DNA of 64,000 bases from Tsuneonella amylolytica. Lineage in GTDB: Bacteria; Pseudomonadota; Alphaproteobacteria; Sphingomonadales; Sphingomonadaceae. The notes beneath the pieces were generated by a model, which worked only from the letters and a program-made list of their open reading frames with translations, did no database searches and was not told the DNA's origin. Location: NCBI RefSeq assembly GCF_003626915.1, contig NZ_CP032570.1, positions 1,860,001 through 1,924,000 on the forward strand, written 5' to 3'. The position numbers and the translations under genes were made by a program. Below, piece by piece: positions 3,822 through 55,878 of the stretch. How positions within the stretch are numbered: position 1 is the first letter of the stretch; each line of letters starts with the position of its first letter.

Positions 3822-3834
3822 CGTTTTCCTACAG
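3822..3834 (+). promoter_or_regulatory. Shared transfer-regulon motif upstream of the relaxosome operon
   Basis: CGTTTTCCTACAG, identical over 13 bases to 41842-41854 upstream of the regulator at 41910. It ends 77 nt before the GTG at 3912. Likely a promoter core or a binding site for a transfer regulator; the exact role is inferred. Confidence 0.55.
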
Positions 3835-22284: not shown

Positions 22285-22317
22285 GGTCAGTCCTCTACGT
22301 TTCTCGTCGGGTATAGG

Positions 22318-22354
22318 ATTCTTCCTAGACTCGCAAAATTCTTCCTAGTAGGAA
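22318..22354. promoter_or_regulatory. Operator region of the S24 repressor
   Basis: ATTCTTCCTAG occurs twice with a 20-bp period (22318-22328 and 22338-22348), and the second copy is part of a perfect palindrome TTCCTA-G-TAGGAA (22342-22354). The position between the divergent repressor and the 22395 gene suggests autoregulation and control of both. The two sites on one helical face (about two turns apart) fit a cooperative repressor. Confidence 0.6.
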
Positions 22355-22366
22355 CATAACAGGAAC
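22352..22366. promoter_or_regulatory. LexA-type SOS box (GAAC-N7-GAAC)
   Basis: GAACATAACAGGAAC matches the alphaproteobacterial LexA consensus GTTC-N7-GTTC read on the minus strand. It abuts the S24 operator palindrome and lies 29 nt upstream of the ATG at 22395. Host LexA or the S24 protein itself might bind here. Confidence 0.5.
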
Positions 22367-22394
22367 GCAAGGAAGATGTGAGTCGAGGCTAGGA

Positions 22395-22715
22395 GTGATG
22401 ACGTTGTTGGACCGGATCGAGATACACCTCATCAAGCACCGCATTTCCGCGACACGCTTCGGCCGCCGCGCAGTCGGTGACCCGAGGTTCGTGCTCGACC
22501 TGAGAATGGGGAGGCGCCCCAGACGACGCACTCTCGAACGGTTGAATGCCTATCTCGATCGGATCGAACGCGGCAGTGAAGGCAAAGGGCTTACGAGGAC
22601 GGATCGTCTTTCTGCCGGTCCGCGAGACTGTCAAAGCGGCGAGCAACCTCCTGCCACAGGCGAGCCCCGTCCTTTTCACCGGATCGAGAAAGCGCGTCTA
22701 TTCTCTCGGCAATGA
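22395..22715 (+). CDS. Small basic protein, probable DNA-binding, 106 aa
   Basis: The first 60 residues (MMTLLDRIEIHLIKHRISATRFGRRAVGDPRFVLDLRMGRRP) look conserved-type: a helix, a short Arg-rich turn region and a closing helix (TLERLNAYLDRIE), the layout of a small helix-turn-helix protein. The last 45 residues are compositionally different and lie antisense to the 22591-22794 gene, so the natural C-terminus may once have ended near residue 62. It is divergent from the S24 repressor and shares its operator, suggesting a Cro-like or regulatory partner. Function not established. Confidence 0.6.
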   Translation: MMTLLDRIEIHLIKHRISATRFGRRAVGDPRFVLDLRMGRRPRRRTLERLNAYLDRIERGSEGKGLTRTDRLSAGPRDCQSGEQPPATGEPRPFHRIEKARLFSRQ

Positions 22716-26589: not shown

Positions 26590-28038
26590 TTACGGTACGA
26601 TCGAGCGCGACTGCAGCCCGCGCGACCAGTCGAGCGCCGCAGCCATCGAGGGTGACATTGAGGCGGCGAGCATGTTCTCGATCATCGCGGTCTTCTCGAT
26701 GATCTGGACGATCGCGGTGATGCGTGCCTGTCCGTTGGCCTGCCGGTGCGCAAGCTGGCTGCGGACCTCCGCCACTTGTGCGCGCCACAGGGCGAGCTTG
26801 GCTTCGTCGGCGGCAATGAAACTGGCCATTGAGCGGCCGGCTTCGGAGACGATCCGCTCGAGGATCGCATGGAGCAGATCGATGCTGGCGACTTCGGCGA
26901 GGGTTGCGCGGTCATCGGTCGCCATGCCGCGTCCAAACGCCGCCTGCACGGTGAGGATCTTGTAGAGCGGCAGCGACGCGACCTGGAGCAGTTCCTTTTC
27001 GGCCTCGCCGATCGCGGTGTCGGTGCGGATCGCCTCCACCATGTTGCCGATCATCAGAGCGACGCGCGGGCGGATCGCCTTCGCGCTGGCAAGGCTCAAT
27101 TGCTGGAAGCTCGGATTGAGACACTGGTCGGTCTCGTCGCACTGGAAGACGCGCACGCTCTGGCCCTGCGTCCCGTCGAGCAGCGCTGTCACCAGCGTCG
27201 AGGAGGCGTCGCCCGCAAAGGGCACGAACCTGCCGGGCTCGTCGTCCTTGGGCGGCACGTAGATGACCGTTCCGATCAAGGTCATCGCGTATTCGGCAAG
27301 CTCGCGGTCGAAGGTGCCGCCGGGGTTGAAGAAGGCGCTCTGCTTGAGGACATGCCAGGTGTAGTTGCGCGGCACCCCGGGATTGACGTCGGCGAAGTCC
27401 TCGCCGCCGTTCTCGTTGGTCGAAGCGCGCTGCCCTCGGGTACCGCAGCCATGCTTGGCCGCGGCATAATCGGTGAAGATGCCTTCGGAATTGCCGATCG
27501 CTTCGCAGATCGCCTTGTCGGCAAGATCGCCCTTGGGCCACACGCCACCGACGAGCCCTTGCGCCATTTCGCAGGAGTTGATCGACAGCTCGTTCATGAG
27601 CTGCGCCTTCTGGCTGAACTCCTGCATGATCTTGTTGCACTCGGGGCAGATCGTGTCGATCGCGAGGCTGAAGGCGAAGCCAACCGCGTTGTTGGCGACC
27701 GCCTTCAGCAGCGCGACCATCTCGCTGGCATTGATGAACGAAAAGGAGCCGGCGAAGATGTCGATCCCGCCGCAGCCGGCCCGCGCGCGCGGCAGTTGAA
27801 GATTGGCGATGTTGGTCGTCTTCTGCGGGAAGCGGGTCCAGACATTGCCCATGCTGTAATAGCCCGCCGACTGGCCTTCGAAGGCGGTCGGCCCGGTGAC
27901 GTTCGCCGCCCCGCCCATGTCATCCATGAACCGGTCCATGCTGTCGCCGACGTTCGCCGATGCTGGTCCCGAGATCGGGGCGGCGACCATGCTCGTGGCG
28001 GCCAGTGCAAGCGCAACGGTTCTAAGCCTAGTAGTCAT
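26590..28038 (-). CDS. traH: TraH, F-type pilus assembly protein
   Basis: 482 residues (F TraH 458) with a signal peptide (MTTRLRTVALALAATSMVAAP...ASA) and the family sequence MGGAANVTGPTAFEGQSAGYYSMGN, GGIDIFAGSFSFIN, and CPECNKIMQ. TraH is an outer-membrane-associated periplasmic protein that interacts with TraF, TraU and TrbI in pilus extension and retraction. Its start overlaps the traF stop by 11 nt. Confidence 0.93.
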   Translation of the reverse strand: MTTRLRTVALALAATSMVAAPISGPASANVGDSMDRFMDDMGGAANVTGPTAFEGQSAGYYSMGNVWTRFPQKTTNIANLQLPRARAGCGGIDIFAGSFSFINASEMVALLKAVANNAVGFAFSLAIDTICPECNKIMQEFSQKAQLMNELSINSCEMAQGLVGGVWPKGDLADKAICEAIGNSEGIFTDYAAAKHGCGTRGQRASTNENGGEDFADVNPGVPRNYTWHVLKQSAFFNPGGTFDRELAEYAMTLIGTVIYVPPKDDEPGRFVPFAGDASSTLVTALLDGTQGQSVRVFQCDETDQCLNPSFQQLSLASAKAIRPRVALMIGNMVEAIRTDTAIGEAEKELLQVASLPLYKILTVQAAFGRGMATDDRATLAEVASIDLLHAILERIVSEAGRSMASFIAADEAKLALWRAQVAEVRSQLAHRQANGQARITAIVQIIEKTAMIENMLAASMSPSMAAALDWSRGLQSRSIVP

Positions 28039-33829: not shown

Positions 33830-34214
33830 GACGCCTGTCTCCTTCGGCAAGGCGGCGCTCGAGCCGCCGGAGGAAGGCCGGCAGGCGCAGCAGCGCGTAA
33901 CCGCCTCCGGCAAACAGGAACGCGACCTTGAGGTCCTGGCTGAACAGGTGCCGGGCGACCGGCTCGGCGAGCCGGTAGTGATCGGCGAGGTTGCCGAGCT
34001 GCGCGAACAGCAGTCCCAGATCCCACCCTGCGAGGAACAGGAACGCGAACAGCGGCAGGCCGAGCACGACGAGCACGATGTTCATCGCAAATCCCGCCGC
34101 CTCGATCAGAACGAGGCAGGTGCCCTGCGCCAGCGACCTCGTGTCGATCTGCCTCGCCCGGCTTTGCCCGCTTGCAATGCGATCGACCGGCGTTTCGTAG
34201 TCGAGGGCCATCAT
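33822..34214 (-). CDS. Conserved-position membrane protein of the transfer operon, 130 aa
   Basis: Located between traC and trbI, overlapping both by 4 and 8 nt, so clearly part of the operon. It has two hydrophobic segments (AGFAMNIVLVVLGLPLFAFLFLAG and VAFLFAGGGYALLRLP) and a basic C-terminal tail. No F-plasmid counterpart is recognised. It may be an inner-membrane scaffold of this F-type subfamily or an assembly factor for TraC; unknown. Confidence 0.75.
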   Translation of the reverse strand: MMALDYETPVDRIASGQSRARQIDTRSLAQGTCLVLIEAAGFAMNIVLVVLGLPLFAFLFLAGWDLGLLFAQLGNLADHYRLAEPVARHLFSQDLKVAFLFAGGGYALLRLPAFLRRLERRLAEGDRRHD

Positions 34215-36772
34215 GCGGCTCCTCGGGCCGAGCCGGCGATGCCCGCGACATGGCCGATCGCCCTGTCGAGCGGCATGCCGTCGGCGACATGCTTGTGGAT
34301 CGCGGCATAGGTGTCGGGATCGGACGAGAAGATTGTCGCCGAGAACGGGTCGAGCACGAGCCGGCCGACCGCCTCTATCTCTGGCCCCTTGATGTAGACT
34401 TCGCTGTATTCGGTGCCCGAGCGCTTGAGACTGCGGATCAGCGTCTCGGTGCGGTCGTCCATGTCGAGCCGCGCTTCCTTGCGGAAATCGGCGATGGTCT
34501 CGGCCTTCTGCTGGAGCACCAGCATCCAGTCGCTGTTCTCGAGCGCGGCGCGGGCGCCGTCCGACTTGTAGTAGTCGTTGAGGGATTGCGTGGCGGTGGC
34601 AAGCGCGCCGCCGTACTTGCGCGCGGTGCGGGCATAGGTCTCGACGAACTCGCCCATCGAGCCGCCCTTGAGCATGGCCCAGGCTTCATCGATCAGCAGC
34701 AGCTTCTTCGTGGAGCGCGAGGAGCGGGTCATCGCCTGGCCTGTCATGAACATGATCGCCGAAAGGACCACGCTCCGCAGCTCCTCGCGCGAGGCAAGAT
34801 CGCTCATCTCGAAGACGGTGAAATCGTCCTCGAAGGCGAAGCTCGCCTTGCCGGAGAAGAAACCGGCATAGCTGCCGCCGCGGCAGAACGGACCAATCGC
34901 GGTCGCCAGTTCCTTGCCGGCCTCACTTTCGGCGGAATGCAGCGCATGCGCGACATCGTCGATGCTGCCGCCGCTGCCGAGGCTGTCCCAGACCTGCGTG
35001 ATCGCGCGGTCGATCAGGCCTCGCTCGGTATCGCTGGGCGCCGTGCTCGGGCGCGCCATCTGCCCGACGATCGCCTTGATCATCGCGAAGCAGTCGAGCC
35101 GGTAATCCTCGTCGCTTTCGGCGCGGGCATCGTCGACCATCGAGAACGGGTTCAGCGAGAAGCCCGAAGCGAGCGTGAACTCGACAAAGCGCCCCCCCTG
35201 CAGCTTGACCGAGTGCTCGAAGCTGCGCCCGTCGTCGATCACCACGACCTTGGCGCCCGCGCCCCTCAGCGCCGCGCAGAGCTCCTGCAGCAGCACCGAC
35301 TTGCCCGAGCCCGACTTGCCGCAGATCGCGATGTTGTGGTTGCCCGCGCGATTCTCGAAGGGCGACCAGAAGAAGGGCTGGCCGCGCCGTCCGACGAGCA
35401 GCAGATGCGGGATGTCGCTGCCGAGATACTCGCCCTGCATCGGCGCGATGTTCGCCGCGGTCGTCGAGAGCATGGTCTTGAGGCGCTTGAGCCTCGCCAT
35501 GTCGCTTGCGAGACCGTCGGCAAGGCTCAGCGGGAAGGCGGCGATCAGCCCCTGGAGCTGGAGGAAGCGCTCGTCGGCGAGGTCCCAGCCCGCCGCCTTG
35601 TAGATCGCCTTGACCACGCGCTCGTGCGTGTCGCCCTGGCCGAGCGGCGAGATCGTGGTCAGGCCGTAGAACAGCTTGACCAGCTTCTTGCCCGCCTGGA
35701 GCTCGGCCTGGACATGGCGCCATTCGGCCGATTGCTCGCCGAGCCTCGGCAGGAAGCGCGCGCTCTTCGTATCCGAGAGGCTGGTCGTGCGCATGAACTT
35801 GTAGCCCGCGCGCGCGGCGGCGGCTTCCTGGTCGGGATAGACGAGGCACAGCATTGTCGCCGTGGGGCACGGGAAACGCAGCTTGTCGGTGAACATGTCG
35901 CCGATGAGGCGCGCGCATTCCCACGGCGCCCAGCGCTCGGGCGTCGAGCGCACGGCATAGTGGCGCAGATCGAAGCGGTCGGGATAGCATTCGCCGACCT
36001 GCGGCACGCCGTCGCGGTCGCGGCCGATCTCGCGGAAGCGCTCGGTGCGCAGGATCAACCGGTCGTCCTCGACCTCGAGTTCGATGTCGCGGCGGATCGC
36101 CTGGACATCGAGCGTCTCGTGGCGATTCCAGTCTATCCGGTCGGGCTCGCGCGCCGTGGTCGGCGAGGTCAGCTCGTCGATCAGCGCGAGCAGGCCGTGC
36201 GGTTCGAGACTGGCTGCGTGCAGTCCCAGCGAATGGAGCATGCCGAGAAGACCTTCGCGGCATTCGGTGAGTTCGGCATCGCTCGCATTGCCTGGCACGG
36301 GAACGCCCAGCGACAGGATCAGCCGGGTGGCGCGCGCGTGGAACGGCGCATGCGCCGAGCCCGATTGCCAGACCAGATCGTACAGACGCTGCGTGCGTGC
36401 CCGCGCGATCGCCTCGTAGATCCCGCCCTGCTCGTAGCGCGGTGCGAACCATGGTCCGACCACCGAGCCGATCCTGGGCGAAGCGAAATTGAGCACCTGC
36501 AGGCAGGCGCCCGCCGGCATCCCTTCGGAGAAGAACTGCCCGAGGATCTCGCCGGTGCGCTCGTCCGCGCCCACCAGCGGGGTCACTTCGAGCACGAAAC
36601 CCTTCGACGCGCGGTTGCGGTAGAGGCCGGTACGCTCGTCATAGACCCGGTAGGGCAGCCAGTCCGACAGCATGTCGAGCATCAGCGGCGCGCGAGCATG
36701 CTCCGCGCGGTCGGTGTCGGCGAACAGGCCGGAGAGCACCGCGTCGCGCGCGGCGCCAAGCGAAAAGCTCAC
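34211..36772 (-). CDS. traC: TraC, VirB4-type ATPase
   Basis: 853 residues (F TraC 875). The N-terminal TraC domain (DWLPYRVYDERTGLYRNRASKGFVLEV) is followed by an AAA-like ATPase with Walker A CGKSGSGKS around residues 480-490 and Walker B KKLLLIDEAWAMLKGG around 695. TraC is the essential pilus assembly ATPase at the inner membrane. It overlaps traV (ATGA) upstream and orf130 (ATGA) downstream. An 11-bp hairpin in the 3' part of traV lies just before its start. Confidence 0.95.
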   Translation of the reverse strand: MSFSLGAARDAVLSGLFADTDRAEHARAPLMLDMLSDWLPYRVYDERTGLYRNRASKGFVLEVTPLVGADERTGEILGQFFSEGMPAGACLQVLNFASPRIGSVVGPWFAPRYEQGGIYEAIARARTQRLYDLVWQSGSAHAPFHARATRLILSLGVPVPGNASDAELTECREGLLGMLHSLGLHAASLEPHGLLALIDELTSPTTAREPDRIDWNRHETLDVQAIRRDIELEVEDDRLILRTERFREIGRDRDGVPQVGECYPDRFDLRHYAVRSTPERWAPWECARLIGDMFTDKLRFPCPTATMLCLVYPDQEAAAARAGYKFMRTTSLSDTKSARFLPRLGEQSAEWRHVQAELQAGKKLVKLFYGLTTISPLGQGDTHERVVKAIYKAAGWDLADERFLQLQGLIAAFPLSLADGLASDMARLKRLKTMLSTTAANIAPMQGEYLGSDIPHLLLVGRRGQPFFWSPFENRAGNHNIAICGKSGSGKSVLLQELCAALRGAGAKVVVIDDGRSFEHSVKLQGGRFVEFTLASGFSLNPFSMVDDARAESDEDYRLDCFAMIKAIVGQMARPSTAPSDTERGLIDRAITQVWDSLGSGGSIDDVAHALHSAESEAGKELATAIGPFCRGGSYAGFFSGKASFAFEDDFTVFEMSDLASREELRSVVLSAIMFMTGQAMTRSSRSTKKLLLIDEAWAMLKGGSMGEFVETYARTARKYGGALATATQSLNDYYKSDGARAALENSDWMLVLQQKAETIADFRKEARLDMDDRTETLIRSLKRSGTEYSEVYIKGPEIEAVGRLVLDPFSATIFSSDPDTYAAIHKHVADGMPLDRAIGHVAGIAGSARGAA

Positions 36773-39510: not shown

Positions 39511-40331
39511 CACTCGACCCCTCCGGTGCTGAAGACAAGGAAAGCGCTGGTTGCTTCGCCGGGCGGCAGCGTGTCGCGGCCATATGCGAAGGCGAGCGCG
39601 CCTGCGGGCGCCTCTCGCTCCTCGCCGAGCGCGAGCGGCTCCTTTCCCATGTTGCGAATGAGAAAGCGCTGACCGGTCAGCGTCGCCCCGTCGTACTGCG
39701 CGACCTGCTGGACCTCGATGGCGCCGGTGCGGCGCGGCCGCGACAGTTCGGCGCGCGCCGAGAAGCCTGGCAGTACCCCATCGCTCGCCATAGCCTCGAT
39801 CAGGCGGATGGCGGCTTCGTTCTGGCCGCTTTCCTGCTCCCATTCGGCCGCCTCGCTACGGACGAGCGCCGGATTGGTGATGAACAGCTGGCCCGCCTCC
39901 ACGCCGCCGAGGCGGCAGGCGAACTTGTAGACGTAGCCGGCCTTGCTGGTGGCGAAGAAGCTGACCTTGTCCGAGGCGAACTGCGGCGGCACCGAGATGT
40001 AGATGTCGCCGCGGACAGGCTCGTGGGTCACCTGAAAGTCGTTGTAGGGAAAGCCGCTCCCGATCTTCGAGACATTGGCGAACCCGTCCTCGACCAATGC
40101 GATGCGGGTCAGCTCGCCGCGCGCGAGCTCGCAGTCGATCGTCGCATTGTCCGCCGCCTCGACGAGCTGGTCGGCGTGCGCGGGGACCGCGAAGAGCGCG
40201 AACGATGCCGCCACGAAGGCCGCGCCGATCGCGCGCAGGCCGCTGTCGGGAACCCTGCTCGCCCCGATGCAGAAGCAGGCAAGGCCGGTCCCCGCGAGCG
40301 CCGCGCTCAGCGGCGTGGAAAAGAGGCTCAT
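39510..40331 (-). CDS. traK: TraK, core complex secretin-like protein (VirB9-like)
   Basis: 273 residues. The N-terminus has an extended hydrophobic region and a signal peptide ending AVPAHA before DQLVEAADNATIDCELARGELTRI. The C-terminal domain carries TRSQRF-like beta strands (ATLTGQRFLIRNMGKEPLALGE). TraK pairs with TraB and TraV in the outer-membrane core. It overlaps traE (ATGA) and shares one base with traB. Confidence 0.9.
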   Translation of the reverse strand: MSLFSTPLSAALAGTGLACFCIGASRVPDSGLRAIGAAFVAASFALFAVPAHADQLVEAADNATIDCELARGELTRIALVEDGFANVSKIGSGFPYNDFQVTHEPVRGDIYISVPPQFASDKVSFFATSKAGYVYKFACRLGGVEAGQLFITNPALVRSEAAEWEQESGQNEAAIRLIEAMASDGVLPGFSARAELSRPRRTGAIEVQQVAQYDGATLTGQRFLIRNMGKEPLALGEEREAPAGALAFAYGRDTLPPGEATSAFLVFSTGGVE

Positions 40332-40894
40332 GATGGCTGCTCCTCGTTTGTGGTAATTTGCTCGAAGCCGGTGAGGCCAAGCGAAAGCCCGCGCTTCGCC
40401 CAGGCAAAGCGGAAGGTCCGTTCCTGACTCGCGATCACCTGCGCTCCGACGAACGTCTTGAGCGTGCCGGTGACGGACGCGGTGAGGCTCTTGGTGTCGA
40501 CCAGCATCGAGCGGATTACGAAGGCCTGGCTGACGTCGGAGCCGCGCTGCTCGTCGACGATCTTGACCAGATCGGCCTTGAGGCGGCCGTGCGCTGCCGG
40601 ATCGGCCACCTTGAGTATCTGCTCCATCCAGTAGTCGAGGCTCTCGGGCGAACGGTTCAGGAGCATCAGCGCGGTGTCGCGGGTGACGAGCTCGAGGTAA
40701 TGCGTATCGATCCCGCCGCTCGAGACCGTGAGGTTCTCGGCGGTGACCGGCACGAGAACAACCTGCTCGTCGCGGGTGATCGCGGCGCCGATACCCAGCA
40801 CGCTGGTCGCTGCCAGGATGGCGCTCAGCCCTGCGAAGCGGTTGCGCTGGGCGAGATATCGCTGGGCCTGCGCATGCGCGAATTCGGTTTGCAT
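40328..40894 (-). CDS. traE: TraE, pilus assembly protein (VirB5/VirB8-like)
   Basis: 188 residues, the same as F TraE. A single membrane segment (AGLSAILAATSVLGIGAAI) near the N-terminus, then a periplasmic domain with the family VSSGGIDTHYLELVTRDTALMLLNRSPES and DVSQAFVIRSMLVDTKSL. It belongs to the inner-membrane part of the transfer apparatus. The start is 13 nt from the traL stop. Confidence 0.93.
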   Translation of the reverse strand: MQTEFAHAQAQRYLAQRNRFAGLSAILAATSVLGIGAAITRDEQVVLVPVTAENLTVSSGGIDTHYLELVTRDTALMLLNRSPESLDYWMEQILKVADPAAHGRLKADLVKIVDEQRGSDVSQAFVIRSMLVDTKSLTASVTGTLKTFVGAQVIASQERTFRFAWAKRGLSLGLTGFEQITTNEEQPS

Positions 40895-40907: not shown

Positions 40908-41195
40908 TCAGCCGGCCAGCAGGCGGCAATGGGAGGGCGGCGTGGCTTTCAATCCCAGGAAGCTCCCGGGCAGATACCAGTAGGCAGCATGCACCAGTTT
41001 CGACCCAGCATTGCCTGCCTTCGCCTTCCGCAGGGCGAACCAGGTCACGACCGATAGGCCCGTGCCGATGATGATGTGCTGCGCGAGAATGCCCCAAGCG
41101 AACGGGACGAGAAGTCCCGCGAACTCGTCGATGGTCCAGAAGCCGATGAGCTCCGGATCGTCGAGCCGCCGTGGAACAAGGTATCTGTCGGCCAT
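40908..41195 (-). CDS. traL: TraL, pilus assembly protein (VirB3-like)
   Basis: 95 residues (F TraL 91): DRYLVPRRLDDPELIGFWTIDEF at the N-terminus, two hydrophobic stretches (LVPFAWGILAQHIIIGTGLSVVTWF), and a C-terminal AAYWYLPGSFLGL segment near the end. TraL is a small inner-membrane component. It is the second gene after the pilin. Confidence 0.92.
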   Translation of the reverse strand: MADRYLVPRRLDDPELIGFWTIDEFAGLLVPFAWGILAQHIIIGTGLSVVTWFALRKAKAGNAGSKLVHAAYWYLPGSFLGLKATPPSHCRLLAG

Positions 41196-41216: not shown

Positions 41217-41240
41217 GACCGCTGTCAGATGACCGCGGTC
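41217..41240 (-). promoter_or_regulatory. Small hairpin at the traA-traL junction
   Basis: Arms GACCGC (41217-41222) and GCGGTC (41235-41240), with a 12-nt loop, straddle the traA stop. A post-pilin hairpin could favour higher pilin mRNA stability relative to the assembly genes. Short stem, so weak support. Confidence 0.3.
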
Positions 41241-41539
41241 ACGACCGAGGTGACGATCGGCACGCCGGTGCCGACGCCGATCCCGACACCCACCGGCACC
41301 GCCACCTGGCCAAGCGCAAAGCGTCCCGAGGCCAGTGCGATGAGGCCGCCGGCGAGCGACATGACGGTGATGATTTTGCCGCCCGAACCTTCGAGGAAGT
41401 CGGTGAACTTCTGCAGCGCCGGATCGAACGTGGTGTCGGCGCCGGCATAGGCGGCACCGGCGCAGGCGATCGCTACAATGGCGGGAAGGATATAGTCGCG
41501 GCCCCGGGGGCGGGCGGCGCTGAGCGGCTTGGTGATCAT
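41225..41539 (-). CDS. traA: TraA, conjugative pilin precursor
   Basis: 104 residues from the ATG at 41539. A long basic leader and hydrophobic signal (ITKPLSAARPRGRDYILPAIVAIACAGAAYA) should be cleaved after Ala32, leaving about 72 residues (F mature pilin 70): GADTTFDPALQKFTDFLEG and two hydrophobic helices (IITVMSLAGGLIALASG, VAVPVGVGIGVGTGVPIV). First gene of the transfer operon. Its promoter region contains a LexA-type box (41583-41597) and the TTTCCTACA motif (41615-41628). Confidence 0.93.
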   Translation of the reverse strand: MITKPLSAARPRGRDYILPAIVAIACAGAAYAGADTTFDPALQKFTDFLEGSGGKIITVMSLAGGLIALASGRFALGQVAVPVGVGIGVGTGVPIVTSVVTAVI

Positions 41540-41582
41540 CGGGAGGAACTCCGGGAAGGTTGAACATCGAACCAGCGAGCAT

Positions 41583-41597
41583 GTTCGCTGTATGTTC
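41583..41597. promoter_or_regulatory. LexA-type SOS box upstream of traA
   Basis: GTTCGCTGTATGTTC is a perfect alphaproteobacterial GTTC-N7-GTTC box, 44 nt upstream of the traA start and downstream of the TTTCCTACA element, where a repressor would block the promoter. Binding is inferred from the consensus. Confidence 0.55.
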
Positions 41598-41614
41598 ATT
41601 CCTCGCCCTGGAGC

Positions 41615-41628
41615 CGGGGTGTAGGAAA
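41615..41628 (-). promoter_or_regulatory. TTTCCTACA transfer-regulon motif upstream of traA
   Basis: CGGGGTGTAGGAAA on the plus strand; identical over 14 bases to 2722-2735. On the minus strand it reads toward traA, 76-89 nt from its start. See the matching features at 2722, 3822 and 41842. Confidence 0.55.
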
Positions 41629-41822
41629 TCGCGAAGTGCGTTGGGCGCTGTCTCACCAAGCAAAAAGCGACATCGACATGGGTCCGGGCCGGGTTCCGCG
41701 CTGGTCGGGCGGCGAATCGCGCAAACTTGGCTGCATTCTGCGCGGGGCGTGCCGCGAATCGCGATCCGGCAGCCGGAATTCGCGCGAATCATCATAGGAA
41801 GCTGATTCGATCCTTCCTCTAT

Positions 41823-41837
41823 GTTCTCTTCTTGTTC
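41823..41837. promoter_or_regulatory. LexA-type SOS box upstream of the 41910 regulator
   Basis: GTTCTCTTCTTGTTC, a perfect GTTC-N7-GTTC match, 72 nt upstream of the start at 41910 and immediately 5' of the TTTTCCTACAG motif. It mirrors the box in front of traA. Confidence 0.55.
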
Positions 41838-41841
41838 TTTT

Positions 41842-41854
41842 CGTTTTCCTACAG
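41842..41854 (+). promoter_or_regulatory. TTTTCCTACAG transfer-regulon motif upstream of the regulator
   Basis: CGTTTTCCTACAG, identical over 13 bases to 3822-3834. It ends 55 nt upstream of the ATG at 41910. Promoter core or operator; role inferred. Confidence 0.55.
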
Positions 41855-41909
41855 CCTTCCTTCGCGGCTAGCCCTCGAGTCGATCACCAACTCGCGAAAG
41901 GATTCGTCG

Positions 41910-42401
41910 ATGACCAACATGGCGCTCTTTGCCGAACAGCAGGTTCGCGCAGACCTCGCCCAGTTGCTGCTCGCAGCAGTCGAAACCAGCGGCCGGACGC
42001 GCTGCGACATTGCGCGCGTCGCGCAGATTCATAAGGATGCCCTGCGCCGTGTTCTGGCAGGCGAGCGCTCCGCCAGCCTGGGCGAGGCCCTGCGCATTCT
42101 TGCCGCGAGCGGCGTTACCCCCCAGGCCCACATCCTGCTGTTCCTCGTCAGCAGCGGCGATCATGCTATTGCCTGGCTGCAATCGGATCTCGCGCAGTTC
42201 TTCGAGGACTTCACCGGCGAGCTGCCATCTGCGCTCGAACGCGTCCTGGGCAACCAGGTCCACAATGTGAGGCCGCGTTGGGCCAAGGGCACGGCGCACC
42301 GCGTCGCCCGGCTCCTGTCCGACCATATCGAGGAACTCGAACGCAGGGATGCGCTGCTTGGTGACGGTTTCCCCTCGACCCAGGGAGGCCATCATGGGTG
42401 A
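41910..42401 (+). CDS. Putative transfer-region regulator with helix-turn-helix, 163 aa
   Basis: Starts at ATG 41910 with GAAAGGA upstream; the frame runs further 5' without coding character. Residues about 25-70 (GRTRCDIARVAQIHKDALRRVLAGERSASLGEALRILAASGV) form an XRE-like helix-turn-helix. The C-terminal half is helical (LAQFFEDFTGELPSALERVLGNQ...) with no known domain. It is divergent from traA and shares its double LexA-box control region, so it probably controls the transfer operon. It overlaps the AlpA-like gene by 8 nt. Confidence 0.7.
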   Translation: MTNMALFAEQQVRADLAQLLLAAVETSGRTRCDIARVAQIHKDALRRVLAGERSASLGEALRILAASGVTPQAHILLFLVSSGDHAIAWLQSDLAQFFEDFTGELPSALERVLGNQVHNVRPRWAKGTAHRVARLLSDHIEELERRDALLGDGFPSTQGGHHG

Positions 42402-42609
42402 GGCGATCGATCCTGCAGCGCCTGAGCCGCGCAAGGTCCCGCGCCTTATCCGTCTCCCTGAAGTCAAGCACCGGGTCGGACTGGGCAGGTCGACGATCTA
42501 CCGCTGGATGGCCGAGGGCAGGTTTCCGAAACCGGTCCAGCTTGGGGGCTATGTGGTGGCGTGGCCAGAAGATGAAATCGAGCACTGGATTTCCGCGAGA
42601 CTAGAATGA
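42394..42609 (+). CDS. alpA: AlpA family phage/element regulator, 71 aa
   Basis: From the ATG at 42394 with GGGAGG upstream. The AlpA pattern is clear: RLIRLPEVKHRVGLGRSTIYRWMAEGRFPKPVQLG followed by VAWPEDEIEHWI. AlpA proteins are MerR-like small DNA-binding activators, often controlling integrase or excision genes on mobile elements. No integrase is seen here, so it may act on the transfer genes or on an excision gene outside the window. It is translationally coupled to the upstream regulator. Confidence 0.9.
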   Translation: MGEAIDPAAPEPRKVPRLIRLPEVKHRVGLGRSTIYRWMAEGRFPKPVQLGGYVVAWPEDEIEHWISARLE

Positions 42610-48146: not shown

Positions 48147-48740
48147 TTACTGATGGGTGTCCTTGTGAGCATCACGCAAGATCTCGATCCCACCATAAAC
48201 CGCGATGCAGGCGACAGCGATGCCAACAATCAAATCAGGCCAGTTCGCCCCTGTCAGCATGACCGCGATTCCCGCAAAGACGATGCCGCCGTTCGAGACG
48301 AAGTCATTGAAGCTGAACGTCGTTGCCGCGCGCAAATTGACATCCTTGTTCTTCAGTTTGTTCAGCAGGCGCAGGCACCACAGATTTACGACAGCAGCCA
48401 CGATCGCCATGCCGATCATGAGCGCGCCGCCGGGAGTCGAGCCGTTGAGATAACGCTGCACAGCATCGGCCATCACACCGACGGCGAAGATCAGAAGCAT
48501 CACGCCTGAGAATCGCGCGGCGCCTCGTTTCCAGCGACGTGACCGCGTCAGCGCCAACAGGCTCAAAGCATAGACAACTGCGTCCGAGGAGTTGTCGACA
48601 CCGTTGGCCAGGAGTGCATTCGAATCCCCCAGAAAAGCCGTCACGAAAAAGCCTGCGGCGATGGCGACGTTGAGCGCCAGGACCAGCCACAGGGTCTTTC
48701 GTTTGTCGGCCGAGCCGAGATCGAAATTGGCTTCGCTCAT
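48147..48740 (-). CDS. Second CDF-type cation transporter
   Basis: 197 residues with six membrane segments, related to the 43934 gene: SNALLANGVDNSSDAVVYALSL in TM2 and FNDFVSNGGIVFAG in TM5, again lacking the HxxxD zinc site. It has a basic loop (SRRWKRGAARF). It is the last gene of the czc operon, overlapping the P-type ATPase stop by 4 nt. It probably exports a divalent metal from the cytoplasm. Confidence 0.83.
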   Translation of the reverse strand: MSEANFDLGSADKRKTLWLVLALNVAIAAGFFVTAFLGDSNALLANGVDNSSDAVVYALSLLALTRSRRWKRGAARFSGVMLLIFAVGVMADAVQRYLNGSTPGGALMIGMAIVAAVVNLWCLRLLNKLKNKDVNLRAATTFSFNDFVSNGGIVFAGIAVMLTGANWPDLIVGIAVACIAVYGGIEILRDAHKDTHQ

Positions 48741-51304
48741 CCCTTGCGCTCCTTTGTGGCCGGTTTCCCGGCGAAAGGCACCTCTCGAAACGCCAGAAGC
48801 CGCAGCGCGTTGAAGACCACGATCAACGTCGATCCCTCGTGGGCAATGACGGCAGGCCCGATCCCAAGCCCGAGTATCGTGGCAGGCAGCAACACTGCCA
48901 CCACACCCATGCTCACGAACACGTTCTGGCGGATGATCCGCCGCGTGCGCCGGCTAAGATCGACCGCGAACGGCAGTTTGGACAGGTCGTCGGCCATCAG
49001 CGCGACATCGGCGGTTTCGAGCGCCACGTCGGACCCGGCCGCTCCCATCGCAATTCCGACCGTGGCCGTGGCAAGTGCGGGCGCATCGTTGACGCCGTCA
49101 CCGACCATCGCGACTTTGCTCTCCGCTGCACGGAGCTTCTTGATCGCCTCGACCTTGTCTTCGGGCATGAGATCGCCCCAGGCGTCCTCAATGCCGACGC
49201 TCGCGGCGACGGCCTTGGCGACAGGTGTCGCATCGCCCGACAGCATGATCATTCGCGTGATGCCGAGTTCGCGCAGGCGGGCAGTCGTTGCGGGAGCCGC
49301 CGACCGAGGAGTATCCATCAGCCCGATTACGCCAAGGTACCGCGCACCCTGGCGAACGATCATAATGGTCCGCCCCTGGGAACGCAGTTCATCCGCCGAG
49401 GCCTTCACTGCATCGGGAAGCGGTTCGCCGCCCGCCTCGGCAAAGAGTTCGTCGCGTCCGATGTGAACGGTCTGGCCGTCGACGACGGCTTCGACACCGC
49501 GTCCCGTGATCGATTTAAGGTCGGTCGCCTTCGCGGCCGGGCCCTTGAGCCGCTCCGTCCCATCGCGGACGATCGCCGCGGCGAGCGGATGGTCGCTGAG
49601 CGCTTCCACCGCGACCGCCGTCTGCAACAATTCTTGCTCCGTTGCATCGGCCGCCGCAACGACATCCGTCACGCGCGGCCGCCCTTCGGTCAGGGTTCCC
49701 GTCTTGTCGAACGCAATAGCGCTCAGTGCGCCCAGGTTCTCGAGCGGCCCGCCGCCCTTCACGAGCACCCCGCCGCGCGCCGCCCGTGCCACGCCCGACA
49801 AGACCGCGCTCGGTGTTGCGATCGCGAGAGCACAGGGGCTGGCCGCGACCAGAACAGCCATCGCCCGATAGAAGCTGGCACTGAAGGGTTCGTCGATCAC
49901 GACCCATGCGAACAGCAGCAGCACCACCAGTCCGAGAACGACCGGCACGAAAATGCGCTCGAACCGGTCGGTGAAGCGTTGAGTGGGAGACTTCTGCGTC
50001 TCCGCTTCGCTGACGAGCTTCACGACTTTGGCTAATGTCGTGTCGGAGGCGAGACGGGTGACCTGGATTGCCAGTGCGCCAGAGCCGTTGATCGTGCCCG
50101 CGAATATTCTGGACGTGGCCGCGACGCTGTCCGCTGCGGCCGCAGCGGCTGCCGGATCCTCTACCGGCTGCTTGTCGACCGCAACGCTTTCGCCAGTCAC
50201 CGGCGCCTGGTTGACGCTGCTGGTGCCTTCGATCACGAACCCGTCAGCCGGCAAGCGCTCGTTGGGTTTGACGACGACAATGTCGCCGACGACCAGCGCC
50301 TCGACAGGCACTTCCTCGGTGGCGCTGCCGCGCCGCACGACCGCCGTCTGCGGCGCTAGCTCTGCCAGCGCTTCGATCGCCTTCTTGGCGCGCCCCATGG
50401 CATAATGCTCGAGCGCGTGGCCAAGGCTGAACAAAAACAGGAGCAAGGCCCCTTCGGCGAATTCCCCCAACAGGGCCGCGCCGGCGGCCGCGACGAGCAT
50501 CAGCGTATCGATCTCGAAGCGGCGCAGTTTGAGGGAATCGATAGCTTCGCGGACAGTGAAGAACCCGCCGAAGAAGTAGGCGGCAAGGTAGAGCGCAGTG
50601 GAGACAACCTCCGGCGCGGCGTCGGCCCAGGACAGTGCAAATCCGATAGCGAGCGCGACGCCGGAGATGAGCGCAAAATACAATTCGGTGTTCGACCCAA
50701 ATACGCCGCCGTGAGCGTGGCCCCCGCCCTCGGTATGATCATGGGAGTGCTCGGCATCTTTGGCGTGGTCGTGCGGGTGCTTGCCGGCGGGAGTAGCAGT
50801 CGGGGTCGTAACCGGATCGGGAGAAGCGCCCGAAGCCTCTGTAGCGCGCGTGTTCGAGCCTCGGCAACTTACGCCGAGCGAGGCAAGCGCCGACGTTATC
50901 TCTGCTTCGTCGACGAGGCTCCGGTCGAACTCCACTCTCAGAGCTCCGCTACCCGTTGCTTGCGCCTCGAACACGCCCTCGATGCGGCACAGCGTTTCCC
51001 CAACGGTCCGCGCCCGCCGCTCCTGCTCGATCCCCTCGACCTGCCACACGAGGTGCCCAAAGCGAGCGGTCAGCGCGGCCCCGGCCGCGCGCGCCGCCTT
51101 GCGTATCTGTTCCAGCCCGACCTTCTCCGGATCGTAATGGACACACAGCTTTGCCGGCTCGTCCCCCATCGCAGCGATCACATGCGCGTCACGCACGCCG
51201 TCACGCTCGGTCAGCTCGTCAAGCAGCCTCGCGACACAGCGATCCGCTTCATCGGGAACTGTCGGGAGAAGGAGCGGAAGGTCGAGGCGTGTGCGTGTCG
51301 TCAC
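48737..51304 (-). CDS. P1B-type heavy-metal ATPase (ZntA/CadA-like)
   Basis: 855 residues. Two degenerate N-terminal metal-binding-like folds lacking the CxxC pair, then a His-rich linker (HPHDHAKDAEHSHDH and GGGHAHGG, near residues 176-200), the TGES actuator, the membrane SPC metal site (489-491) and the phosphorylation Asp533 in DKTGT, then GDGVNDAPAL. SPC with a His-rich segment fits Zn/Cd/Pb export. Lying in the czc operon it would move metal from cytoplasm to periplasm for CzcCBA. Overlaps the CDF by ATGA. Confidence 0.93.
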   Translation of the reverse strand: MTTRTRLDLPLLLPTVPDEADRCVARLLDELTERDGVRDAHVIAAMGDEPAKLCVHYDPEKVGLEQIRKAARAAGAALTARFGHLVWQVEGIEQERRARTVGETLCRIEGVFEAQATGSGALRVEFDRSLVDEAEITSALASLGVSCRGSNTRATEASGASPDPVTTPTATPAGKHPHDHAKDAEHSHDHTEGGGHAHGGVFGSNTELYFALISGVALAIGFALSWADAAPEVVSTALYLAAYFFGGFFTVREAIDSLKLRRFEIDTLMLVAAAGAALLGEFAEGALLLFLFSLGHALEHYAMGRAKKAIEALAELAPQTAVVRRGSATEEVPVEALVVGDIVVVKPNERLPADGFVIEGTSSVNQAPVTGESVAVDKQPVEDPAAAAAAADSVAATSRIFAGTINGSGALAIQVTRLASDTTLAKVVKLVSEAETQKSPTQRFTDRFERIFVPVVLGLVVLLLFAWVVIDEPFSASFYRAMAVLVAASPCALAIATPSAVLSGVARAARGGVLVKGGGPLENLGALSAIAFDKTGTLTEGRPRVTDVVAAADATEQELLQTAVAVEALSDHPLAAAIVRDGTERLKGPAAKATDLKSITGRGVEAVVDGQTVHIGRDELFAEAGGEPLPDAVKASADELRSQGRTIMIVRQGARYLGVIGLMDTPRSAAPATTARLRELGITRMIMLSGDATPVAKAVAASVGIEDAWGDLMPEDKVEAIKKLRAAESKVAMVGDGVNDAPALATATVGIAMGAAGSDVALETADVALMADDLSKLPFAVDLSRRTRRIIRQNVFVSMGVVAVLLPATILGLGIGPAVIAHEGSTLIVVFNALRLLAFREVPFAGKPATKERKG

Positions 51305-51338
51305 AAAGTGTTCTCCTCGAAGACAGGTCTTGGACGGA

Positions 51339-54300
51339 TCATGCTGGCAGCGGTTCCGACCCAGGTATTCCGTCCTCGAAATCGCCCGGCTGATGGGGCT
51401 CCCCGCGCTTCCTCAGGATGAGATGGCTGATCGCGGGAAGGACGTAGAGGGTCATGATGGTGGCGACGATCAGGCCGCCGATGACCACGATCGCGAGCGG
51501 CTTCTGGACCTCTGCCCCTCGCCCGGTGGCCAGCGCCATGGGCACGAAGCCTATCGCCGGCACGATGCCGGTCATCAGCACCGCGCGGACCCGCTCCAGA
51601 GTGCCTTCGACGATCGCTTCGTCCACCGGTCGTCCAGCATCGATCCGCTGACGGACGCTGGTCATCACCACGAGACCGTTGAGCACGGTCACCCCCGATA
51701 GCACGATGAAACCGACCGCCGCCGAGATCGAGAACGGCAAGCCCGCCAGCGCCAATCCAAACGCGCCACCGGCGAGCCCCAGCGGAACCGCCGAATAGAC
51801 GGCCAGCGAAGAGCGCAAATTGCGCACCGCCAGGAACAGGATGCCAAAGATGAGCAGGAATACCACTGGCACGATCAGGGTGATGCGCTGCGAGGCTGCC
51901 TGCAAATTCTCGAACTGCCCTCCCCAGGTGATGGTGACACCGGGTGGAAGCTTAACCTGCGCGACCCGCTCCTGCGCCTCGTCGACATAGGAGCCGAGAT
52001 CGCGGCCCCTCACATTGGACTGCACGACGACTCGGCGCTGTCCGTTCTCACGGCTGACCTGGTTCAGGCCTTCGGACGTTCGGAAGGCGACCAGCTCGCG
52101 CAGCGGGACGGACGTTCCGGCACCGGAAGCACCTTCGGGGAGCTGCACGGGAAGCGAGCCGACCACGTCGAGGTCGTCACGGTTGAGATTGTCGAGCCGG
52201 ACGATGATGTCGAAGCGGCGGTCACCCTCGAACACCAATCCGGCTTCGCGTCCGCCCAGGGCCGCCGCGACCGTGTCGGTCACGTCCTCCATGGCCAGAC
52301 CGTAGCGAGCGATCGCTTCGCGATCGAACTGCACCTCAAGCGTGGGAAAGCCCTCGGTCTGTTCGACCTTCAGATCCGCAGTTCCCTCGACACCGCTCAT
52401 CGCGGCTGCGACTTCGCCCGCGACGCGATTGAGAACGTCCATGTCGTCGCCAAAGACCTTAACCGCGATGTCGCCGCGGACACCGGCGATAAGCTCGTTG
52501 AAGCGCAGCTCGATCGGCTGGCTTGTTTCATAGGCGTTGCCGACGAGGCCCCCCAGCTTGTCATCGATCCGGGCGAGAACGTCCTCGCGGCTGTCGACTC
52601 CGTCCGGCCACTCGTCGCGCGGCTTCAGGATGATGAAGGCATCGGATGCGTTCTGCGGCATGGGATCGGAAGCGACTTCGGCCGTACCCGTCTTCGAGTA
52701 CACATAGGCCACCTCCGGGAGGCTGGACACCGCGCGCTCGACCGCCAGCTGCATCTTGGTCGACTGCTCGAGCGAGGTCGAAGGTACGCGCAGCGACTGC
52801 ATGGCAAGATCGCCCTCGTCGAGGGTGGGAATGAATTCGCGCCCCAGACTTGTGAAGACAAGAAAGGCTGCCGCCATGGTGGCCAAGCCGCCACCAATCC
52901 ACGGCCAAGGCCGCTGGACCACTCGGCGCAGCACGGGTTCGTACCGCTCCTTGTACCAGGCAACCGCCTTGACCTCTTTCTCCGCGACCTTGCCGCGTAT
53001 GAGGACGGCGACCATCGCCGGCACGAAGGTCAGCGACAGGATGAAAGCACCCACCAGCGCCAGCATGACCGTGATCGCCATCGGCGAGAACGTCTTGCCC
53101 TCGACTCCGGTGAAGGTGAGCAGCGGCGCAAAGGTGAGCAGGATGATTGCCTGGCCGTAGATGGTGGGCCGGAGCATCTCCTTGGAGGCTTCGAACACTT
53201 CGTGAAGGCGCTCCGGCAGGCTCAGCAGGCGGCCCTCATGATGCTGGCGCTCCGCCAGCCTGCGCAGGCAATTCTCGATGATGATGATCGATCCATCGAC
53301 AATGAGGCCGAAATCGAGTGCGCCGAGGCTCATCAGATTGCCCGACACGCCGAAGCGATTCATTCCGATCGCCATGAACAGGAAGGAAAGCGGGATCACG
53401 AGCGTCGCGATGATTGCCGCGCGGATATTGCCAAGCAGCCAGAACAGCACCGCTGCCACGAGCAGGGCTCCTTCGAGCAGGTTCTTCTCGACGGTTCCGA
53501 TCGTTGCTTCGACCAGGGCGGCGCGATCGTAGACCACGTTCACCGCGATGCCCGGAGGCATCGACTTCGCGACCTCCTCCAGCCGCTCGCGCACGTCTTC
53601 GGCAACGATGCGGCTGTTCCCGCCCAGCAGCATCAGGGCCGTCCCCACGACCACTTCGCGCCCGTTCATGGAAGCCGAACCGGTCCTGAGATCGCCGCCG
53701 CTTTGCACGGTCGCAACGTCGCGGACGAGCACGGGCACCCCTCCACGGGTTCCTATGGCCGTTCGGCCGATCTCGTCTTCGGTGCGAATGCGGGCGTCCG
53801 CTCGCACCAGAAAGGCTTCGCCGGCGCGCTGCACGAAGTTGGCGCCGATCGAGATGTTTCCGCGCTCGAGGGCCTCGGCGAGCTCAGTGAACGAGACGCC
53901 GTAAGCCGCCATGCGGCTTGGGTCGGGCTGGACCACCAGCTGTTTTTCGTAGCCGCCGATGGAATCGATCCCAGCAACCCCTTCGACACTGCGGAGCTGC
54001 GGCCGGACCACCCAATCCTGGATCGTCCTCAGATAGGCTGCCTTCTGCACATCCGTCGTTAGCCGTTCCCCATCGGGTGTGAGGAAGTCGCCGTCGGGCT
54101 GAAAACCGGGTTGCCCGGCGATCATCCTCGACTCTTTGGACAACGGCCGTTTGTAATCGACCGTCCACATCAGGATTTCGCCGAGGCCGGTCGACAGCGG
54201 GCCCATCTGCGGCTCGACCGCTTCGGGAAGGCTCTCGCGTGCCTGGTTAAGGCGTTCGGCAACTTGCTGCCGCGCGAAGAAGATATCGACGCTGTCCTCG

Positions 54301-54590
54301 AAGATCACCGTGACCTGGCTGAAGCCATTGCGCGAGATCGAGCGCGTGCTTTCTAGGCCGGGAATCCCGGCCATCGCCGTCTCAACCGGAAACGTGACCA
54401 GCCGCTCCATGTCGAGTGGACCCAAGGCCGGCGCCTGGGTGTTGATCTGCACCTGCTTGTTGGTGATGTCCGGCACTGCGTCGATCGGCAGGCGGAATAG
54501 CTGGTAGGCGCCATACGCCGCAACGAGCAGGGTAAGGGCGATGACCACCCAGCGAAATCGGACCGAAGCGTCGAGAAGACGATCTAACAT
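51339..54590 (-). CDS. czcA: CzcA-type heavy-metal RND pump
   Basis: 1083 residues, twelve membrane segments and two large periplasmic loops. The fourth helix shows DFGLIVDGSIIIIEN, matching the HME1 signature (DFGx3DGx3xEN), which goes with Zn, Co, Cd and Ni export rather than CusA-type Cu/Ag. It is a proton-driven exporter spanning the envelope with CzcB and CzcC. It starts 91 nt after czcB and is followed 34 nt later by the ATPase. Confidence 0.94.
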   Translation of the reverse strand: MLDRLLDASVRFRWVVIALTLLVAAYGAYQLFRLPIDAVPDITNKQVQINTQAPALGPLDMERLVTFPVETAMAGIPGLESTRSISRNGFSQVTVIFEDSVDIFFARQQVAERLNQARESLPEAVEPQMGPLSTGLGEILMWTVDYKRPLSKESRMIAGQPGFQPDGDFLTPDGERLTTDVQKAAYLRTIQDWVVRPQLRSVEGVAGIDSIGGYEKQLVVQPDPSRMAAYGVSFTELAEALERGNISIGANFVQRAGEAFLVRADARIRTEDEIGRTAIGTRGGVPVLVRDVATVQSGGDLRTGSASMNGREVVVGTALMLLGGNSRIVAEDVRERLEEVAKSMPPGIAVNVVYDRAALVEATIGTVEKNLLEGALLVAAVLFWLLGNIRAAIIATLVIPLSFLFMAIGMNRFGVSGNLMSLGALDFGLIVDGSIIIIENCLRRLAERQHHEGRLLSLPERLHEVFEASKEMLRPTIYGQAIILLTFAPLLTFTGVEGKTFSPMAITVMLALVGAFILSLTFVPAMVAVLIRGKVAEKEVKAVAWYKERYEPVLRRVVQRPWPWIGGGLATMAAAFLVFTSLGREFIPTLDEGDLAMQSLRVPSTSLEQSTKMQLAVERAVSSLPEVAYVYSKTGTAEVASDPMPQNASDAFIILKPRDEWPDGVDSREDVLARIDDKLGGLVGNAYETSQPIELRFNELIAGVRGDIAVKVFGDDMDVLNRVAGEVAAAMSGVEGTADLKVEQTEGFPTLEVQFDREAIARYGLAMEDVTDTVAAALGGREAGLVFEGDRRFDIIVRLDNLNRDDLDVVGSLPVQLPEGASGAGTSVPLRELVAFRTSEGLNQVSRENGQRRVVVQSNVRGRDLGSYVDEAQERVAQVKLPPGVTITWGGQFENLQAASQRITLIVPVVFLLIFGILFLAVRNLRSSLAVYSAVPLGLAGGAFGLALAGLPFSISAAVGFIVLSGVTVLNGLVVMTSVRQRIDAGRPVDEAIVEGTLERVRAVLMTGIVPAIGFVPMALATGRGAEVQKPLAIVVIGGLIVATIMTLYVLPAISHLILRKRGEPHQPGDFEDGIPGSEPLPA

Positions 54591-54681
54591 AAATACGTTC
54601 CTGGGAGGCGTAAGCGGTCGGCAATGCCGAGATCAGCATCGCGGGCGCGGCCGAAGCCTCGAAAATGGGGAGGTGCCTGTA

Positions 54682-55878
54682 TCAATGCTCGGCTTCGCTG
54701 GCGCCAAGCTGCGACTTGAGAACGAATGCGCCTTCAGTGGCGATCACGGCGCCCGGCTTGATGCCTCCGAGAATCTCGATGCGGCCACCGCTGCGTTGGC
54801 CCGCAGACACGGGGGTTGCCTGGAAGCCGCCGTTCACCTGAACGAACACGACATCGCGGCCTTCCACCGATTGGACGGCACCCTCCGGGATGACGATGCG
54901 ATTTCCAGTCGCGCCACCACGCGGCGTGATCCGGACCCGAAATGCCTGGCCCTGGGTCAGCCCGGCAGGAATGCCCGACGGAGACAGCACCACGGTTGCG
55001 GCGCGGCTCTCGGTGTCGAGCGAGGGTGTGGTCGATCGGACCACCGCATCCAGGGTCGCCCCATCGCCCAGCTCGATCACGGCCCGATCGCCTGGGCGGA
55101 TGCGCTGAGCGTCTGACCACGGCACCGCCGCTTCGATCTGGACGCTGCGCGGGTTGGCGACCTCGAACAGCTCGGTCCCGGCCGATACAAAGGCGCCAAG
55201 CTCCGCATCCATCTTGGTAATCCGGCCGCTGATCAGGCTGCGGACGGCAATGTGCCGTCCGTCTGAGGTCACCCCGGCCGCGGTCACCGCCGCCTGGGTG
55301 CGGCGCAGCTCCGCCTGAGCCTGCGCAGCCTCGGCCTGGGCAGCCTCGAGATCCTGCCGAGCGGTGATCTTGGCATCGAACAGACGCCGCTCACGATTGA
55401 GCGCGGCGGCCGTCGCCTGCGCGCGGGCTGTGGCCGAAGCGCGCTCGGCGATGATCGCGGCCGCTTCGCGACTCTCGAGCAAGGCGACGGTCTCACCGGC
55501 ACCGACTCCATCGCCGAGGCGCTTGTAGATGCTCGTGATCGCACCGTCCGCCCGAGCGGTCAGGGACGAGCGACCGGTCGGGGGAGCGGTCGCGGTCGCC
55601 TGGGCAAGGATTTCGGATCCAAGCGAGCCCGCAGTAATACGCTCGGTCCGAATTCCGACCGCTTCCAGATTTGCAAGCGGCACGGCCACAAACCCTTCGG
55701 GTCCGTGATCCTCCTCGCCCTCTTCTTCGCCCGCCTCGGCTTCTTCGGCAGTTGCACCGGCTGCGGTCGGCTCGTCCGTAGCACGGCCGATAATTATTCC
55801 ACCAACGCCCGCCAGCAAGGCGATGCCTCCGGCGATGGCGATGAGCCTTTTGCGATCATCAGCTGGATTGAGGTCCAT
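54682..55878 (-). CDS. czcB: CzcB-type periplasmic adaptor
   Basis: 398 residues. N-terminal anchor (LIAIAGGIALLAGVGGIIIG), a Glu-rich segment (EEAEAGEEEGEEDHGPEGF), then the HlyD-type barrel-sandwich (AQATATAPPTGRSSLTARADGAITSIYKRLGDGV) and a coiled-coil hairpin (ARAQATAAALNRERRLFDAK). It joins CzcA to CzcC. It is 10 nt from the czcC stop, so it is in one operon. The acidic segment may pre-bind metal. Confidence 0.92.
   Translation of the reverse strand: MDLNPADDRKRLIAIAGGIALLAGVGGIIIGRATDEPTAAGATAEEAEAGEEEGEEDHGPEGFVAVPLANLEAVGIRTERITAGSLGSEILAQATATAPPTGRSSLTARADGAITSIYKRLGDGVGAGETVALLESREAAAIIAERASATARAQATAAALNRERRLFDAKITARQDLEAAQAEAAQAQAELRRTQAAVTAAGVTSDGRHIAVRSLISGRITKMDAELGAFVSAGTELFEVANPRSVQIEAAVPWSDAQRIRPGDRAVIELGDGATLDAVVRSTTPSLDTESRAATVVLSPSGIPAGLTQGQAFRVRITPRGGATGNRIVIPEGAVQSVEGRDVVFVQVNGGFQATPVSAGQRSGGRIEILGGIKPGAVIATEGAFVLKSQLGASEAEH

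Follow-up and report, generated by a model that had tools for sequence, protein, structure and literature searches.

The window analyzed here, a 64-kb stretch at positions 1860001-1924000 of a single 2.79-Mb contig of Tsuneonella amylolytica, probably lies entirely within a chromosomal integrative and conjugative element (ICE) at tRNA-Leu(CAG). The tRNA-Leu(cag) gene occupies genome positions 1837672-1837758 and is adjoined by a tyrosine integrase at 1837906, annotated through Pfam. An imperfect copy of the tRNA end, exact over 14 letters (GGCACCATTTGTTC), is found at 1932166; a search for a second copy of the 20-nt tRNA end allowing up to one mismatch returned none. Taken together, the tRNA gene, the integrase alongside it and the imperfect end repeat point to an element of ~94 kb that has an integrase at a tRNA gene and flanking attachment repeats, the repeat being imperfect. 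Just past the right attachment repeat, an interrupted integrase relative (genome 1932352-1933200, about 8352-9200 of locus L047) is likely what is left of another element that occupied this site and has decayed.

The element carries a relaxase, a coupling protein and a mating-pair apparatus, with conjugation genes of the F type. On the plus strand, a traD-type (TrwB-type) coupling protein (4231-6564, PF10412) is followed by a traI-type (TrwC/MobF) relaxase-helicase (6609-9518, PF08751). The F-type transfer operon runs on the minus strand and opens with a traA-like pilin gene (41225-41539, 104 aa), identified by its position before traL and by a match to the NCBIfam model TraA_gammapb (E 1e-6) that falls below the cut-off. 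It continues through traL (40908-41195, PF07178), traE (40328-40894, PF05309), the traC ATPase gene (34211-36772, PF11130), traH (26590-28038, PF06122) and traG (23875-26577, PF07916). An S24 (LexA/CI-like) repressor gene of the ICE (21649-22284, minus strand, PF00717) adjoins an MmeI-like restriction-modification gene at 17975-21508. Cargo includes metal-efflux genes at 48147-55878, encoding a cation-efflux protein, a P-type ATPase, an ACR_tran pump and an HlyD-type adaptor, and an efflux pair at 12224-14919, where an HlyD-type membrane-fusion protein precedes an MFS transporter.

Divergent from traA, a regulator gene (41910-42401, plus strand, 163 aa) encodes an XRE-like helix-turn-helix (HTH) and a helical C-terminal part; its HTH_31 match is weak and below the cut-off. 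An AlphaFold2 model built from 23 sequences (mean pLDDT 84.9) places long helices after an N-terminal part similar to members of the XRE family, C.AhdI among them (best Foldseek E 0.024, TM by target 0.78), and no Foldseek match to the model reaches E 0.001 or better. The regulator gene is overlapped by a gene for an AlpA-family regulator (42394-42609, plus strand; PF05930, E 3e-20, above the cut-off). AlpA proteins are excision-linked activators in other elements.

Boxes in the window and their conservation

A pattern search of the window returns exactly three perfect GTTC-N7-GTTC matches, the form of a LexA-type box. One precedes the regulator-alpA genes (GTTCTCTTCTTGTTC, 41823-41837, plus strand), a second precedes traA (GTTCGCTGTATGTTC, 41583-41597, plus strand) and doubles as one arm of an inverted repeat, and the third lies ~68 bp 5' of the S24 start codon at 22284 (GTTCCTGTTATGTTC, 22352-22366, minus strand). 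The sequence-only reading had reported perfect boxes before traA and the regulator and a third beside the S24 repressor, and all three stand exactly where it placed them. The boxes are direct repeats, and the palindromic form GAAC-N7-GTTC is absent from the window. As a count, three boxes are unremarkable and not significant: shuffled windows contain a mean of 1.6 matches, in keeping with an earlier chance estimate of 1-2, and 19 of 100 shuffles hold at least three, so that the notability first claimed for the number is lost. Nor do three boxes fall within a few hundred bases of promoter DNA, as had been stated, since only two share the 370-bp traA/regulator gap and the third is 19 kb away.

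Conservation of the regulator box is extensive. Of 396 genomes taken from the order, 54 have a match to the regulator protein, as do 35 loci of the genome collection, with no match in the plasmid record collection. The regulator regions of G369, a genome of the same genus, and of Tsuneonella troitsensis are identical over 600 nt (L049 and L079). Ninety-four loci were considered, two of which were dropped for short upstream sequence; the remaining 92 were reduced to 44 that share <90% identity across 150 nt. Of these 44, 40 have a perfect box, whose spacer takes 33 different forms, and in all but one of the 40 a T still stands ahead of the second GTTC (39 loci). Three others (L072, L232 and L241) carry one GTTC mismatch each, and the single locus with no regulator box, L075, has a regulator match containing an in-frame stop. 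The homologues examined reach down to 37% identity: of a further 29 at 37-61% identity, 27 carry one or more perfect boxes, compared with 0 or 1 for eleven other letter arrangements. Across the whole traA/regulator gap, a box is present in 41 of 42 loci after 95% de-replication, with controls that are not clean here (TTCG-N7-TTCG in 8/42, GTTC-N10-GTTC in 13/42). A failure of the boxes to persist in homologous regions had been named beforehand as grounds for giving up the proposal of LexA control; the comparison instead supports it strongly.

Seven regulator loci (L058, L092, L098, L101, L102, L108 and L112) have no traL in the stretch examined; their box near -312 lies on the opposite strand instead. 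In the five inspected (L058, L098, L101, L102 and L092), a protein reading as a lytic transglycosylase (SLT) homologue is encoded divergently from the regulator, an identity backed in L058 by a search match (G162). These loci are perhaps shorter elements or deletion derivatives.

Boxes also recur at other promoters of the element. S24, SLT and integrase genes were searched in 30 of the 54 regulator-matching genomes. An S24 box accompanies 29 of 30 matches, and in the 27 closest it always lies at -77 to -90. The SLT box, which sits in a 130-bp gap (genome 1839930-1840059) between the SLT gene and a Toprim-type gene adjoining the integrase, is found in 28 of 30 matches. Removing near-identical sequences at 95% reduces the closest 27 S24, 28 SLT and 21 integrase matches to 17, 19 and 7; boxes remain at 17/17 S24 and 19/19 SLT promoters, counts that leave out the unboxed matches (one S24, two SLT) and nine distant integrase matches. 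Controls for S24 and SLT give 0 to 2 with other words and 0 to 3 with other spacer lengths. The integrase box, at -144/-145 in 18 of 30 matches and in 5/7 after de-replication, is ambiguous, because its controls are nearly equal (4/7 with another word, TTGC; 5/7 with a 15-nt spacer) and its first GTTC is also part of the attachment core. Besides the box, the S24 promoter (22285-22400) contains conserved TAGGAAG and GAGTCTAGGA letters, a candidate self-operator of S24, in a comparison that set aside L058 or L075, homologues of <49% identity and two SLT loci.

Five ICE stretches of 60-91 kb each, not always complete, were scanned (that of T. amylolytica, G391, G174, G364 and G035). In all five the integrase is followed by SLT, the relaxase operon, S24, the transfer operon and the regulator, in that order. 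Boxes stand at the SLT/Toprim, S24, traA and regulator-alpA promoters in 5/5 and at the integrase in 4/5, and the ~379 kb hold only four further boxes, none of them at the relaxase operon. Rather than to a plasmid with two boxes, the evidence points to an ICE whose boxed promoters number at least four.

A second short element, TTTCCTACA, recurs near several of these boxes. Pattern searches place it before regulator-alpA (41845-41853, plus strand) and traA (41620-41628, minus strand), and also before the operon of a small gene, traD and traI (3825-3833, plus strand) and before a DUF6437 gene (2727-2735, minus strand), both of which have no perfect LexA-type box. The window thus holds four copies against 0.04 expected, a further copy precedes SLT, and each of them points toward its gene. 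Genome-wide there are 25 copies versus 3 for the reversed pattern. An ICE-only operator was considered and rejected, as 20 of the 25 genomic copies lie outside the ICE. We tentatively regard TTTCCTACA as a core promoter element, possibly of sphingomonads. CTAGC follows 14 nt after it at the regulator copy and at 4 of 20 chromosomal copies (L254, L255, L256 and L264); the assignment is kept tentative because CTAGC is missing at traA, SLT, DUF6437 and traD and because some chromosomal copies fall inside ORFs. The regulator box ends 7 bp upstream of TTTCCTACA, the SLT box begins 7 bp downstream of it, and the traA box lies 22 bp downstream, placements from which a repressor could act.

The host SOS motif and probable LexA control

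The same motif marks SOS genes of the host. GTTC-N7-GTTC occurs 80 times genome-wide, versus 36 for the reversed pattern, and is located upstream of host recA, radA and a PA0069-type rSAM gene (NCBIfam, above the cut-off). It also precedes matches to imuA, rmuC, dinG-type and uvrD-type genes that fall below the NCBIfam cut-off, and a gene without an NCBIfam match that is presumably mmcB. A host gene with an S24 domain (above the cut-off), which we take from its sequence to be lexA, has the box GTTCCGCGTTCGTTC, 29 bp upstream of the ATG. The T before the second GTTC is common to the regulator boxes and the host recA-class sites, and the lexA site has C. The motif stands in the ICE promoters and also in the promoters of host lexA and recA. 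GTTC-N7-GTTC is stated to be the LexA site of alphaproteobacteria (PMC3323433) and of Caulobacter (PMC12907096).

Scores from a host-derived matrix vary widely. The matrix was built from nine host sites only and used with a reporting threshold of 9.5; it scores the S24 box at 19.5, the integrase box at 19.2, the SLT box at 18.2 and the regulator box at 12.4, with the traA box under 9.5 and not listed. Two matches inside ORFs (at 51098 and 37803, scores 13.1 and 12.5) outscore the regulator box. Leave-one-out scores of the nine host sites themselves span 6.5 to 21.3, and the matrix is therefore judged poor.

A chromosomal S24 paralogue (genome 319450-320061, L015) is 45% identical to the ICE S24; a box, GTTCATGAAATGTTC, lies 271 bp ahead of its start. 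An extra S24 match, besides the ICE-type copy, is present in most of the 30 genomes searched.

Because the boxes fit the alphaproteobacterial motif, recur at host SOS genes and are conserved, direct control by LexA is the best reading. We estimate a probability of about 0.82 that host LexA directly represses the activation and transfer promoters of the ICE, and DNA damage would then probably switch ICE transfer on directly. Direct LexA control of the transfer region had been proposed from the window's letters, and the motif match, the host SOS genes and the conservation support it, although the proposal was incomplete: more promoters are boxed, and the traA box on which it partly relied is the weakest case.

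The sequences show where the boxes lie, that they are conserved and that host SOS genes share the motif; LexA binding, induction and the parts played by the regulator, AlpA and S24 are inferred. In an undamaged cell, LexA would sit on the boxes of the promoter of the XRE-like regulator and AlpA, of the traA/transfer operon promoter, of the divergent SLT/Toprim pair adjoining the integrase and of the ICE's own S24 repressor gene, and possibly on the integrase box also. Upon DNA damage, RecA would trigger LexA self-cleavage and all boxed promoters would be freed together. The regulator and AlpA would then be made, AlpA probably assisting excision, as would the pilus and the cell-wall enzyme. The S24 repressor, made at the same time, would serve as a brake restoring silence.

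A more ambitious version of LexA control, to which we give somewhat less than even odds, holds that this ICE family hands induction to its host. LexA would be the family-wide master repressor at no fewer than four promoters, those of the excision module, the cell-wall/primase-like genes, the pilus operon and the element's own repressor, and S24, behind a box itself, would be a second sensor or a reset brake. Such an arrangement would amount to a two-tier SOS switch with the transfer operon inside the host SOS regulon.

Alternative readings of the boxes

The traA promoter is the weakest case for a LexA box. Its box is perfect at its place in 38 of the 44 de-replicated loci, but the spacer, free at the conserved regulator, S24 and SLT sites, is nearly invariant here, with GCTGT nearly fixed and a G at spacer position 1. 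The near-fixed spacer is accounted for by an inverted repeat that overlaps the box, GAACAT-N5-CAGCGA-N6-TCGCTG-N1-ATGTTC (41562-41597), which is possibly an RNA hairpin or a second operator. Its inner-arm pattern (CAGC or CGGC with GCTG) is present in 39 of 42 sequences with a loop of variable length, and the outer arms GAACAT/ATGTTC are present in many close relatives. Most single sequences upstream of traA fold into a hairpin, and RNAalifold returns no consensus structure for 39 automatically aligned traA-upstream sequences. The match could instead form one arm of a conserved hairpin, or of a palindromic operator, and be no LexA box at all, which we consider unlikely, if the most serious of the alternatives. 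The conserved inner arms, the nearly fixed GCTGT and the low matrix score speak for it, as do L232, L239 and L241, where the inner arms persist although the second GTTC is no longer intact. Conversely, L236, L240 and L244 retain the second GTTC although it is essentially unpaired in single-sequence folds, and retention of both GTTC halves in 38/44 loci also speaks for a box. We think that both constraints, box and inverted repeat, act at traA.

A second alternative gives the switch to the ICE's S24 repressor, which, as in SXT, would be cleaved on damage, leaving the LexA boxes to tune S24 or play some secondary part. An Ala-Gly region, the serine motif GDSM and the lysine motif VVKRV can be read in the S24 sequence; we take them to be the cleavage and catalytic motifs of an autoprotease, apparently intact. 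A copy 62-100% identical is found in 27 of the 30 genomes searched, a count that may include copies outside the ICE of the regulator, and the additional conserved letters of the S24 promoter would suit a self-regulating repressor. An S24-only model does not, however, predict boxes at the regulator, traA and SLT promoters or their match to host SOS genes, and inspection by eye identified no shared S24 operator at the transfer promoters. As the real switch, S24 is improbable. Its apparently intact cleavage motifs nevertheless mean that S24 cleavage may add to LexA release or replace it, and since S24 itself stands behind a box, both routes may operate.

Less probable still, by about half, is that the boxes are bound by a protein of the ICE, either the XRE-like regulator or S24, with a convergent LexA-like motif. 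Boxes do accompany the regulator down to 37% identity, and the 10 plasmid traA promoters examined are unboxed in a collection where the regulator is unmatched. Against such a binder, the boxes agree with host recA-class sites in half-site, in spacing and in the common T ahead of the second half, and the S24 and SLT promoters, far from the regulator, are boxed too. Random matching, with which three boxes against 1.6 expected and the 19 shuffles reaching three would agree, is rejected despite that ordinary count and has next to no probability left, ruled out by the retention of boxes across the 44 loci, in distant homologues and in all five ICEs.

Relation to known systems

The closest precedent in mechanism is the LexA-repressed sgaDC of SGI1 (PMC9927553). 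Host LexA binds and represses the promoter of this master activator, and SOS induction raises its expression and speeds transfer; binding is shown there at one promoter, sgaDC, with sgiAT negative (PMC9927553). SGI1 is mobilized by IncC plasmids and has a box of the CTG-N10-CAG type (PMC9927553), whereas the element described here is a complete ICE with predicted LexA binding at four or more boxed promoters, the transfer operon among them.

SXT/R391 elements are ICEs that encode an S24 repressor and whose transfer is linked to SOS (PMC4542580); an S24 gene is present here as well, and an SOS link is predicted. In SXT, the element's own SetR undergoes cleavage, freeing the activators SetCD (PMC4542580), whereas here boxes stand at the ICE promoters themselves; according to PMC4790341, LexA does not control the SXT integrase. 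The genes beside traA encode an XRE-like regulator and AlpA. The sequence-only reading had contrasted its proposal with the SXT pattern; that contrast is too sharp, in that the ICE has an S24 of its own, itself boxed and with an apparently intact cleavage motif. In a study of an IncI1 plasmid, direct LexA control of its tra genes was judged unlikely (PMC12211044).

A look for the same boxes in related plasmids had been suggested. They are found beyond the window at homologous ICE regulator loci, but not in the plasmids examined: 84 plasmid records have DNA similar to traA-traL, and the traA upstream gap is boxed in 0 of the 10 sphingomonad plasmids examined. These plasmids, which share similar traA-traL genes yet are without boxes, offer a natural contrast to the ICE.

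For the alphaproteobacterial LexA regulon, the targets named in the available text of PMC3323433 and PMC12907096 are DNA-damage genes; here, the boxes are at mobile-element promoters. Our literature search, outside which most subscription journals fall, turned up nothing on LexA boxes in this family of ICEs or on the transfer operon of any ICE being controlled directly by LexA. What is new, at the level of predicted sites, is that several promoters of a complete ICE are boxed, transfer operon included, across many sphingomonad genomes. If LexA control holds, agents that damage DNA would induce the spread of a sphingomonad ICE family directly, through a host sensor, and the LexA regulon of these bacteria would include conjugation, in this case of an ICE carrying metal-efflux genes. 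It would also make a case for asking why some mobile elements use host LexA and not only a cleavable repressor of their own.

ICEs of Erythrobacter at tRNA-Leu-CAG share the tRNA and the integrase position of the present element (PMC4919336). That paper covers gene content and phylogeny, the word 'LexA' occurring 0 times in its main text, and two of its ICE-carrying strains, SD-21 and AP23, appear among the loci compared here (L089 and L094).
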